DNA of 64,000 nucleotides from Bacteroides luhongzhouii. GTDB taxonomy: Bacteria; Bacteroidota; Bacteroidia; Bacteroidales; Bacteroidaceae. Both the position numbers and the translations under genes were made by a program. Positions 33,555-49,525 of the stretch are shown here, in pieces. The DNA lies in assembly GCF_009193295.2 (NCBI RefSeq), contig NZ_CP059973.1, positions 4,650,001 through 4,714,000 on the forward strand, read 5' to 3'. Position 1 is the stretch's first letter, and the number at the start of each line of letters is the position of its first letter. The notes beneath the pieces were generated by a model, which worked only from the letters and a program-made list of their open reading frames with translations, did no database searches and was not told where the DNA came from.

Positions 33555-33577
33555 CCCCCATAAAATTACAAAAGACA

Positions 33578-33640
33578 ATGAGAACAATGTTAGTAAATAC
33601 ATATTGGTGGTGGCACCCGTTACAACTCCGACAGTCGTAA
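33578..33640 (+). CDS. trpL: trp operon leader peptide with three consecutive Trp codons
   Basis: A 20-codon frame, ATG at 33578 to TAA at 33638, reading MRTMLVNTYWWWHPLQLRQS. The TGG TGG TGG run is at 33605-33613. Three Trp in 20 residues is far above chance, and the frame lies between a strong promoter and a strong terminator ahead of trpB. The likely role is ribosome-mediated attenuation: stalling at the Trp codons when charged tRNA-Trp is scarce. Downstream, CGACAG (33629-33634) can pair with CTGTCG (33698-33703) in the 5' arm of the terminator, giving an antiterminator that a ribosome reaching the stop codon would cover. Confidence 0.8.
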   Translation: MRTMLVNTYWWWHPLQLRQS

Positions 33641-33691
33641 GGGAGCAGTGCTCGTATGTATATACCTCATTAAAGATATAACAAAATTGAA

Positions 33692-33730
33692 AGAGCCCTG
33701 TCGCAACCTGCGACAGGGCTCTTTTTATTT
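33692..33730 (+). terminator. trp attenuator (intrinsic terminator)
   Basis: AGAGCCCTGTCGCA (33692-33705) and TGCGACAGGGCTCT (33709-33722) form a perfect 14-bp stem with a 3-nt loop, followed by TTTTATTT. It lies 50 bp after the leader peptide stop and 50 bp before trpB. Unless antitermination occurs, it should block the whole operon. Confidence 0.88.
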
Positions 33731-47887: not shown

Positions 47888-47924
47888 AAAAAAAACGAGC
47901 TAATTCTTTTTATAGAACCACTCG
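47888..47924 (-). terminator. Terminator of the AGGUA-repeat RNA
   Basis: On the minus strand CGAG pairs with CTCG and TTCT with AGAA around a small internal loop (47896-47924), followed by eight T (47888-47895). Confidence 0.75.
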
Positions 47925-48150
47925 CCACTACATCAGAAAAGCCAAAAGGCTTTTCCATAGTACCTCAAATTTCCTGAAAACTAATCTTCTTTTTACCTAA
48001 AAACCTCTTACCTATTGTTATCCTTTTACCTTCTATTAAAAACTTATCCTATTGAATAAACTAAAAAACTTTTAATACCTTAAATGTCTAATCTAATACC
48101 TTTTTAATATTTTCTTTTACCTTTATAAACTAACAGCAATTTCTCAACTG
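47888..48150 (-). ncRNA. Candidate noncoding RNA with seven AGGUA motifs and a C-poor body
   Basis: A minus-strand transcription unit of about 260 nt. Promoter at 48156-48186 (perfect). In RNA sense, a 5' hairpin (CAG...CTG) leads to about 160 nt of nearly cytosine-free A/G/U sequence with AGGTA at 48118-48122, 48097-48101, 48076-48080, 48027-48031, 48009-48013, 47994-47998 and 47961-47965. A perfect hairpin with GAAAAGCC/GGCTTTTC (47936-47955) and a terminator (47896-47924 plus eight T at 47888-47895) end it. The only frame is 28 codons and runs through the terminator. The pattern resembles sponge RNAs that titrate an RNA-binding protein; the partner is unknown. Confidence 0.6.
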
Positions 48151-48155
48151 CTTTG

Positions 48156-48186
48156 CAAAGGTACGAACATTTTTCGTGTGCGCAAA
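48156..48186 (-). promoter_or_regulatory. Consensus promoter of the AGGUA-repeat RNA
   Basis: Minus strand TTTG (48186-48183), exactly 19 bp, TACCTTTG (48163-48156). Both boxes match consensus. It lies in the gap after the LuxR-type regulator stop at 48217 and points away from any gene on that strand for more than 20 kb. Confidence 0.75.
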
Positions 48187-48216: not shown

Positions 48217-48828
48217 CTATAAACCTTTCACATCATTCAACGTAACCAGCTTATTTACAATAGCATAAATAGTCAAACCGGCAGCACTATGTATTTGCAA
48301 TTTTTTGCTAATATTCCTCCGGTGCGTGATAACGGTATGAATCGACAAGAACAGCTTTTCCGCTATTTCCTTATTCGTCATCCCCTTCACCACACAGATG
48401 ACGATTTCTTTTTCCCGCTGACTGAGTGTATCCTGATTATCCATCTCTTCTTCTTCAGAAACAACATTCAATAAACCGGCTATTTTCTTGGAAAGAGTTT
48501 CCAAATCATCGAATATTGAAATAGACTCATCATACTTACCCAACAATGAAGCATCTACAAAAGAAGTAACCAGGGCTATTAAACGTATCCTTTTACCGGA
48601 TATTTCCTCCCGGAATTTAGCGACATCAAAATAATCACCAAAAGCAGGATTGACAATCAACATCTCAGGACATTGCGTCCGGACACAATCGTGTAAAGCT
48701 TCAACAGACAGCAATTCTATCGGTTGCACTTTTACGTTGGAAAGACGCTTCAATGCAGCAGTCAATCCACCACGAATAATCACAGAAGTTTCTGCAATAG
48801 CAATTCGAACGACTTCGTTATTTTTCAT
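48217..48828 (-). CDS. LuxR/NarL-type regulator with pseudo-receiver domain
   Basis: A 203-residue DNA-binding regulator. The N-terminal half follows the receiver fold, but the acidic pocket is AET instead of DD and the phospho-acceptor position is Asn60 (EMLIVNPAF). It is therefore unlikely to be phosphorylated in the normal way. The C-terminal HTH (about 135-190) is intact: LSQREKEIV, GMTNKEIAEKLFLSIHTVITHRRNISKKL. It overlaps the upstream hemerythrin gene by 11 bp, so the two are translationally coupled and may form a sensing pair for oxygen, nitric oxide or iron; this is inference. Confidence 0.9.
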   Translation of the reverse strand: MKNNEVVRIAIAETSVIIRGGLTAALKRLSNVKVQPIELLSVEALHDCVRTQCPEMLIVNPAFGDYFDVAKFREEISGKRIRLIALVTSFVDASLLGKYDESISIFDDLETLSKKIAGLLNVVSEEEEMDNQDTLSQREKEIVICVVKGMTNKEIAEKLFLSIHTVITHRRNISKKLQIHSAAGLTIYAIVNKLVTLNDVKGL

Positions 48829-49525
48829 TTTCCCTCATCCTCCTTTCCAAGTTCAGAATAGCAGGAACAAAAATATAATCCTCCACCTTGCAATGAGATT
48901 CCAGTCCGGCTTCGCAAGCATATATATCAAAAAGAGCCGCATTCAGAAGATTCTCATTTGCCTTGGCAGGACAATATTTTATAATGATATTTTTTAGTTC
49001 TGTCAACTTCTCCCCTACCTGATCGTGATGCTTGGAAAAGGTACTGATCTGGTAGTTTTTGGGAGCATTTCCCTTAATCAATGAATCGACATACTTAAAG
49101 ACGGTTTTCTCTTCATAATCCATGTGCTTACGCACTTCCCGCGTATATTCATCAAAAAACTTGAGAATAAGAAAAGCGACATCGTCCTGCGAACAGTCGA
49201 TTGCCTCGATCAGTTTACGACGAATAGCCGGAAGAGAAAAATCAAGAAAATAAATATGCGCCTGCCGCAGATAATCAATCAATGCAGGTATGGAAATATC
49301 ATCTTTATCCCCATCAAGCCGGGAAAAGCCTTCGGCCATAAAGTTGACTACAATCAGAAAGGTCCGACAGTCCACTCCATTTAGTTCACAAACTTCTTTG
49401 ACTGTTTTGTCACCAAATCCCAACGAAAGTCCAAAACGACTCATCACTTGCAACAAAGAATAATTATCGCTGATGAGATCGATCATCTTATCAGTTGGCT
49501 TGTATTTCTGTAAATTATCCATCAT
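48818..49525 (-). CDS. Hemerythrin-like di-iron protein related to RIC/YtfE
   Basis: A 235-residue cytoplasmic four-helix protein. Likely iron ligands His90, His134, Glu138, His166 or His167, His211 and Glu215 have the same spacing as the di-iron ligands of YtfE/ScdA repair proteins. The N-terminal about 60 residues resemble the short DUF542 domain but lack the CC pair. YtfE-type proteins repair iron-sulfur clusters or handle NO. The pairing with a LuxR-type regulator suggests a sensor role instead. First gene of a two-gene unit; a possible -7 box TTTCTTTG is at 49548-49555 on the minus strand. Confidence 0.82.
   Translation of the reverse strand: MMDNLQKYKPTDKMIDLISDNYSLLQVMSRFGLSLGFGDKTVKEVCELNGVDCRTFLIVVNFMAEGFSRLDGDKDDISIPALIDYLRQAHIYFLDFSLPAIRRKLIEAIDCSQDDVAFLILKFFDEYTREVRKHMDYEEKTVFKYVDSLIKGNAPKNYQISTFSKHHDQVGEKLTELKNIIIKYCPAKANENLLNAALFDIYACEAGLESHCKVEDYIFVPAILNLERRMRENEK

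Follow-up and report, generated by a model that had tools for sequence, protein, structure and literature searches.

A probable multi-site RNA sponge for the small RNA BTnc060 in Bacteroides

We analysed a 64,000-nt stretch of DNA (hereafter the window) from the 5.76-Mb genome of Bacteroides luhongzhouii, whose minus strand carries a gene for a C-poor RNA with seven AGGTA motifs. Judged from sequence comparisons and predicted duplexes, this RNA is probably a dedicated multi-site sponge (decoy) for the trans-acting small RNA (sRNA) BTnc060. If true, an antagonist, a target and a probable regulon are assigned at one stroke to BTnc060, an sRNA already catalogued and strongly conserved; sRNA-sponge logic extends to Bacteroidota; and a natural multi-site sponge, testable and reusable in gut bacteria, becomes available.

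The RNA gene and its relatives

The gene and its upstream neighbours comprise the following features, in window positions:

48818..49525, minus strand: gene with a hemerythrin domain, overlapping the LuxR gene (context)
48217..48828, minus strand: LuxR/GerE-type regulator gene, some 60 nt upstream of the RNA (context)
48156..48186, minus strand: promoter TTTG-N19-TACCTTTG, read from the letters (TTTG 48186-48183, 19-nt spacer, TACCTTTG 48163-48156)
47888..48155, minus strand: candidate sponge RNA, about 260 nt, 5' end approximate
48136..48151, minus strand: 5' hairpin GCAGTT-GAGA-AATTGC with a GNGA loop
47961..48123, minus strand: C-poor tract with ten BTnc060-complementary blocks of 9-13 nt
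48122, 48101, 48080, 48031, 48013, 47998 and 47965, minus strand: AGGTA starts in the tract
47971..48033, minus strand: strongest seed-A region, complementary to BTnc060 GUUAUCCUGAAAACAAUCUUUUUACCUU (predicted duplexes)
47936..47955, minus strand: hairpin GAAAAGCC-TTTT-GGCTTTTC, arms nearly invariant and loop variable (homologue alignment)
47888..47924, minus strand: bulged terminator stem (47924-47896) with compensatory changes, and T8 (47895-47888)

The promoter, C-poor tract, hairpin and T8 terminator described in an initial annotation of this minus-strand RNA gene are all present in the letters, and the seven AGGTA follow one another at exactly the steps it gave (21, 21, 49, 18, 15 and 33); the 5' hairpin at 48151-48136 and two AGGATA at 48050 and 48024 on the same strand were absent from it. 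A simple terminator scan found none at the locus, in our opinion because the stem is bulged. We take TTTG-N19-TACCTTTG to be the Bacteroides sigma-ABfr promoter type. Sigma-ABfr promoters are mentioned in an excerpt of PMC11697453, and the promoter type in the window agrees.

C makes up 4.0% of the 200 nt preceding the GAAAAGCC hairpin, and the C-poor stretch with the seven AGGTA is about 180 nt long. Over both strands of the window, no 170-nt stretch has fewer C than one in this RNA (4), the next distinct minima being 9 on the same strand and 16 on the other. It is also the densest AGGTA cluster of the window: its 7 copies fall inside 200 nt, the other strand reaching 3 at best, and 300 dinucleotide shuffles have 1.0 (p 0.003). 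The RNA had been called unstructured, which the folding predictions do not bear out: mean unpaired probability is 0.48 for the tract and 0.45 for shuffles (0.62 at the AGGTA sites). The absence of a plausible frame, by contrast, holds up, with the sole ATG ORF of at least 10 aa, 28 aa long, crossing the terminator, and a closed ATG ORF of at least 20 aa lying inside only 1 of 49 distinct homologues, so that we find no conserved coding.

No Rfam family matches the RNA (best sub-threshold match 13.6 bits, compared to a cut-off of 382), including the CsrB/Rsm families. The only Rfam match of the window at gathering score is the Bacteroidete tryptophan peptide leader RNA (RF01692, 113.5 bits) at 33558-33702 on the plus strand.

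A LuxR C-terminal signature lies upstream of the RNA in 33 of the 49 distinct loci. The hemerythrin-domain gene resembles iron-sulphur repair proteins at a score far below cut-off, and a cluster of glycosyltransferase and hexapeptide-transferase genes converges with the RNA. These surroundings suggest control of the RNA by stress or surface signals.

Matches to the window RNA were reported by blastn in 65/119 genomes of the genus, among them G111 with 99% identity over the RNA; this count includes 9 genomes whose match (query 154-199) is the BTnc060 locus, and one row (G068:C71) that is a target leader, G068 carrying the RNA as well. A pattern for the 3' module, scanned over 84,980 named species genomes, gave 47 stretches in Bacteroides, in records labelled Mediterranea and Caecibacteroides, and in one Thiothrix, the last of which looks like chance. 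B. thetaiotaomicron VPI-5482 is not among these 47, possibly through pattern mismatch or the omission of near relatives. A covariance model matched 45/399 family genomes, namely 42 of the same genus (among the 60 same-genus genomes listed), one of another genus (E 1.7e-6) and two marginal; it covers the 3' module, and sponges with a different 3' end would escape it. We assembled 77 loci, 12 of which, including the Thiothrix chance match, lacked the full RNA by script rules, leaving 65 (49 distinct).

The top over-represented 5-mer in the 49 distinct RNAs is AGGTA (274 occurrences versus 38.9 in shuffles, or 5.59 versus 0.80 per RNA), and its excess is significant (p<0.05) in all except L028, L093 and L105 (46/49). 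AGGTA columns are better kept than the remaining tract, with identities to the window RNA of 0.780 and 0.614, respectively, and of 0.724 and 0.532 in 35 distant relatives, a conservation that 0/179 circular shifts equalled. The repetition of the motif noted in the initial annotation is thus borne out, and the motif is conserved above its flanks. Compensatory changes in the terminator helix amount to 30 cells, reached by 0/500 shuffles; they sit at three pairs, a number that 39/500 shuffles equalled. Set A2 comprises 38 of 39 hand-picked loci, one being left out for length.

The host genome has a paralogue (G000:C1:1373200) that shares the RNA's type of promoter and of 5' hairpin as well as its AGGTATTAG repeats, and that ends differently at the 3' side. 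Two sponge-like AGGTA clusters each in G100 (contigs C13 and C118) and G069 (C29 and C153) are perhaps further sponge copies. Several contigs of G056 bear short tandem AGGTATTAGG-like arrays, apparently simple repeats.

A leader with the same elements and the sRNA BTnc060

A search of the host genome for three clustered AGGTAW gave 16 matches, only slightly above the 11 of the control and hence a lead rather than proof, among them the window RNA, its paralogue and a leader at C1:38406; a C-free AGGTA pattern run on the 119 genomes, with control counts similar in size, is likewise a lead and not proof. The leader precedes the gene for a conserved 118-aa secreted protein and has AGGTA in the same orientation as the RNA at its 5' end, in its middle and, as AGGTATT, immediately before the ATG. 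Three to five copies are present in 29 of 30 fetched leader homologues, the 30th (L062) being unreadable by the script, and one to four in each of another 60 leaders, most of them more distant. In all, 90 rows were read (30 loci and 60 stretches), and some others, weak or partial, were passed over. Since RNA and leader share the motifs on the same strand, they cannot pair with each other through them, which points to a third partner.

We rejected a general role of AGGTA in leaders: the 22 leaders in the window, few as they are, have five in sense and one in antisense, which does not account for the clusters. We also discarded the idea of another leader having a pair of AGGTA ahead of an ATG, since the search gave 8 places versus 4 in the control, with only the known leader and the paralogue standing out. 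The secreted protein, perhaps Spy/CpxP-like, gave no fold match at E <=0.001, no NCBIfam family and no Pfam family above cut-off. In a remote clade, leaders of its homologue (L192, L194, L195 and L196, from G101, G003, G026 and G050) have a long inverted repeat and a T run before the AGGTA site, an attenuator-like layout.

Searching the host genome for CAATAGG...TTTTYAGG yielded six matches, compared to one for the reversed pattern. The match at C1:4811817 is antisense to an sRNA gene flanked by phoU and riboflavin synthase, and this sRNA is BTnc060 (Rfam RF04184; 245 bits, gathering cut-off 228.9). Its first 60 nt are predicted to be single-stranded and contain two UACCU-containing seeds, GUUAUCCUGAAAACAAUCUUUUUACCUU (seed A) and CUAAUACCUAUUGAAAAC; they are nearly letter-invariant, with a variable terminator stem, in the 30 best-matching genomes, a choice of sequences that flatters conservation. 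A BTnc060 search found a match in 113/119 genomes of the genus and in 70/70 near-complete ones, and by our count BTnc060 itself in 109 of the 113, excluding G002, G038, G043 and G085, which have nothing better than a weak match (E no better than 2e-7), in at least G002 and G043 to a leader. The Rfam model is 213 nt long; we used a 97-nt form starting from an internal promoter-like box. A search of one paper collection for the name BTnc060 found no paper.

Pairing with BTnc060 and alternative readings

The predicted duplex of BTnc060 with the window tract has an energy of -46.3 kcal/mol (shuffles -25.4), compared to -44.7 with the leader (shuffles -21.1) and -38.2 with the paralogue (shuffles -21.6), and in each case 0/500 shuffles reach the value. 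All seven AGGTA fall inside 9-13-nt blocks that, by complementarity, should be able to pair with BTnc060, the seed-A region having predicted sites at 47999-47971 (-26.0) and 48033-48007 (-17.2). When both strands of the window were cut into 2838 stretches and compared, the four covering the RNA ranked 1-4. Predicted pairing is conserved in the 20 genomes for which both loci were fetched, with z from -3.2 to -7.7 in 20/20 genome-matched pairs, 19 of them with 0/100 shuffles reaching and one (G030) with 1/100. Independently, in the 9 genomes mentioned above, what blastn with the window RNA picked up was the opposite strand of the BTnc060 locus.

Among the 34 places listed by seed blastn against the host genome, BTnc060 itself comes first, followed by the leader at rank 2, the window RNA at rank 4 and the paralogue at rank 7; the places ranked 3, 5 and 6 are 3' or coding positions that look like chance, and complementarity alone is therefore no proof. 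Full-length BTnc060 duplexes that fit in the tract number two (2.1 in shuffled tracts) and seed-A sites four (shuffles: mean 1.9, maximum 4), the sole clear excess among site counts being that of seed-B sites, of which five fit (shuffles: 0.9, maximum 2). We considered, and rejected, a pairing between the GAAAAGCC hairpin and the terminator of BTnc060, given that sponges of G034 and G078 keep GGCTTTTC where the BTnc060 arm is GAAAAGCTCC. GAAAAGC of the GAAAAGCC/GGCTTTTC hairpin recurs in the BTnc060 terminator, with no covariation.

The leaders behave similarly. Of 89 tested, all against BTnc060 of the host genome and with L062 left out, 84 are distinct, and 82 of these have z<-2 (mean energy -39.4 versus -17.8). 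In G074, a remote homologue matches the other BTnc060 seed perfectly over 26 nt, and the G026 leader shows no pairing beyond chance (-16.3; 12/60 shuffles reach).

A protein that reads AGGUA was the partner originally proposed, which would predict enrichment of AGGUA and of nothing else. Masking AGGTA in the 49 tracts left 440 BTnc060-complementary 8-mers compared to 125 expected, and masking every AGG left 360 compared to 109, excesses that 0/500 BTnc060 shuffles reach in either case and that favour base-pairing. Moreover, CAATAGG, GGATAAC and GTTTTC, among the top enriched k-mers, are all complementary to BTnc060, and leaders such as L152 and L166 pair strongly with BTnc060 yet have a single AGGTA. 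We hence consider it unlikely that AGGUA/AGGAUA repeats act in a CsrB-like manner to titrate an RRM protein such as RbpB from AGGUA leaders, even though AGGTA is the top 5-mer and is common to the RNA and the leaders, the host genome encodes three RRM_1 proteins, and RbpB is reported to bind GUAGGAUA with a KD of 5.1 uM (excerpt of PMC12119571, a secondary source) and AU-rich single-stranded RNA (excerpt of PMC11697453). Binding of an RRM protein in addition to BTnc060 could nevertheless occur. From the initial proposal we therefore retain titration, which is also our best reading, and replace the protein ligand by BTnc060, which is likelier since elements other than AGG are complementary to it and the same elements occur in the leader. 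CsrA was rejected as a partner: as had been supposed for Bacteroides, it is absent, with PF02599 in 0/119 genomes of the genus, a profile that does detect CsrA in E. coli, B. subtilis and T. maritima.

Two further readings accept the complementarity to BTnc060 and interpret it differently. That the window RNA is itself a BTnc060 target, acting through its invariant hairpin or a peptide, would account for a nearly invariant GAAAAGCC hairpin that otherwise lacks an explanation, and for BTnc060 being more widespread than the sponge; the lack of a conserved ORF (1/49) and the decoy-like spread of many blocks across the tract make it, to our mind, quite improbable. It is very improbable that the RNA is a functionless, decayed duplicate of a BTnc060-controlled leader, an origin that the extended elements shared by sponge and leader (e.g. 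TTCAATAGG and GTTTTYAGG) might suggest, because AGGTA columns are conserved above their flanks, as no circular shift was, and the terminator stem is kept by the compensatory changes described above. A sponge for BTnc060 thus remains our preferred reading.

Proposed circuit and comparison with known systems

BTnc060 would pair with leaders and block their translation, and in the host genome its coverage of the leader would extend to within 19 nt of the start codon. Translation repression by leader coverage is described for GibS, MasB, BatR and FopS in an excerpt of PMC11697453. The sponge, transcribed from its own promoter, would bind one or more BTnc060 molecules and thereby relieve repression, and may also speed BTnc060 decay; the paralogue at G000:C1:1373200 would act as a second sponge. 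BTnc060 and paired leaders are also found in genomes with no match to the sponge model (G017, G039, G060, G094, G045, G096 and G112 are examples), and the sponge is therefore not essential to the circuit and looks like an added layer.

Among the BTnc060 matches listed in other species, we hand-chose 20 further complementary places, and hence claim no enrichment. By our reading, a leader or the start of a gene or small ORF is involved in 15, a sponge in one, and no gene of this sort accompanies the other four. Domains of representatives (GH43, SusC-type TonB plug, GH35, SASA esterase, L-rhamnose mutarotase and PL8) suggest, from their sequence context, a BTnc060 glycan-use regulon that would differ by species. 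In L266, L267 and L268, from three genomes, tandem ORFs of ~30 aa have BTnc060-complementary elements at their starts, AGGTTATG or AGGTATG at the start codon, and in L276 (minus strand) two tandem BTnc060-complementary copies of TCAACAGGTATTAGTTTTT lie directly before a SASA esterase gene (1528-2403). We give about an even chance to the broader view that BTnc060 is a genus-wide glycan/envelope repressor, gated in many Bacteroides by the sponge gene (and its paralogue), which often follows a LuxR-type gene, and that stress or surface signals could thereby switch genes through RNA-RNA titration without Hfq.

Like CsrB/CsrC and RsmX/Y/Z, the window RNA combines a repeated purine-rich motif, paralogues and a titration logic with occurrence of the motif in target leaders; unlike them, it has no GGA-in-loop hairpins, its ligand appears to be an sRNA, and its genus has no CsrA (0/119). 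BTnc060, in turn, resembles FopS/GibS, as these are presented in part of PMC11697453, in its single-stranded 5' part, its terminator and its sites near glycan-gene starts, and belongs to another Rfam family. The antagonist of FopS is reported there to be the protein RbpB, whereas that of BTnc060 would be an RNA.

A search by title for an sRNA sponge in Bacteroides, within one collection and with few wordings, gave no paper, and one Bacteroides paper speaks of sponges in general terms. Like bacterial sRNA sponges, the window RNA would pair with the seed of a trans-acting sRNA, which should free mRNA targets. It differs in being a separate gene with its own promoter and terminator, in offering about ten blocks to two seeds where, to our knowledge, most known sRNA sponges have one or few sites, and in belonging to a phylum that, as far as we know, is reported to lack Hfq and CsrA. 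Known sponges named in an excerpt of PMC12721325 include the chitosugar-operon trap of ChiX, phage-derived anti-sRNAs, the tRNA 3'ETS, a GcvB sponge, InvS/PinT, OppX/MicF, the RoxS sponge of B. subtilis and a Vibrio quorum-sensing sponge. Altogether, on our best reading, the kind of system, an sRNA sponge, is already known, and a dedicated multi-site sponge for BTnc060 would be a new form of it.
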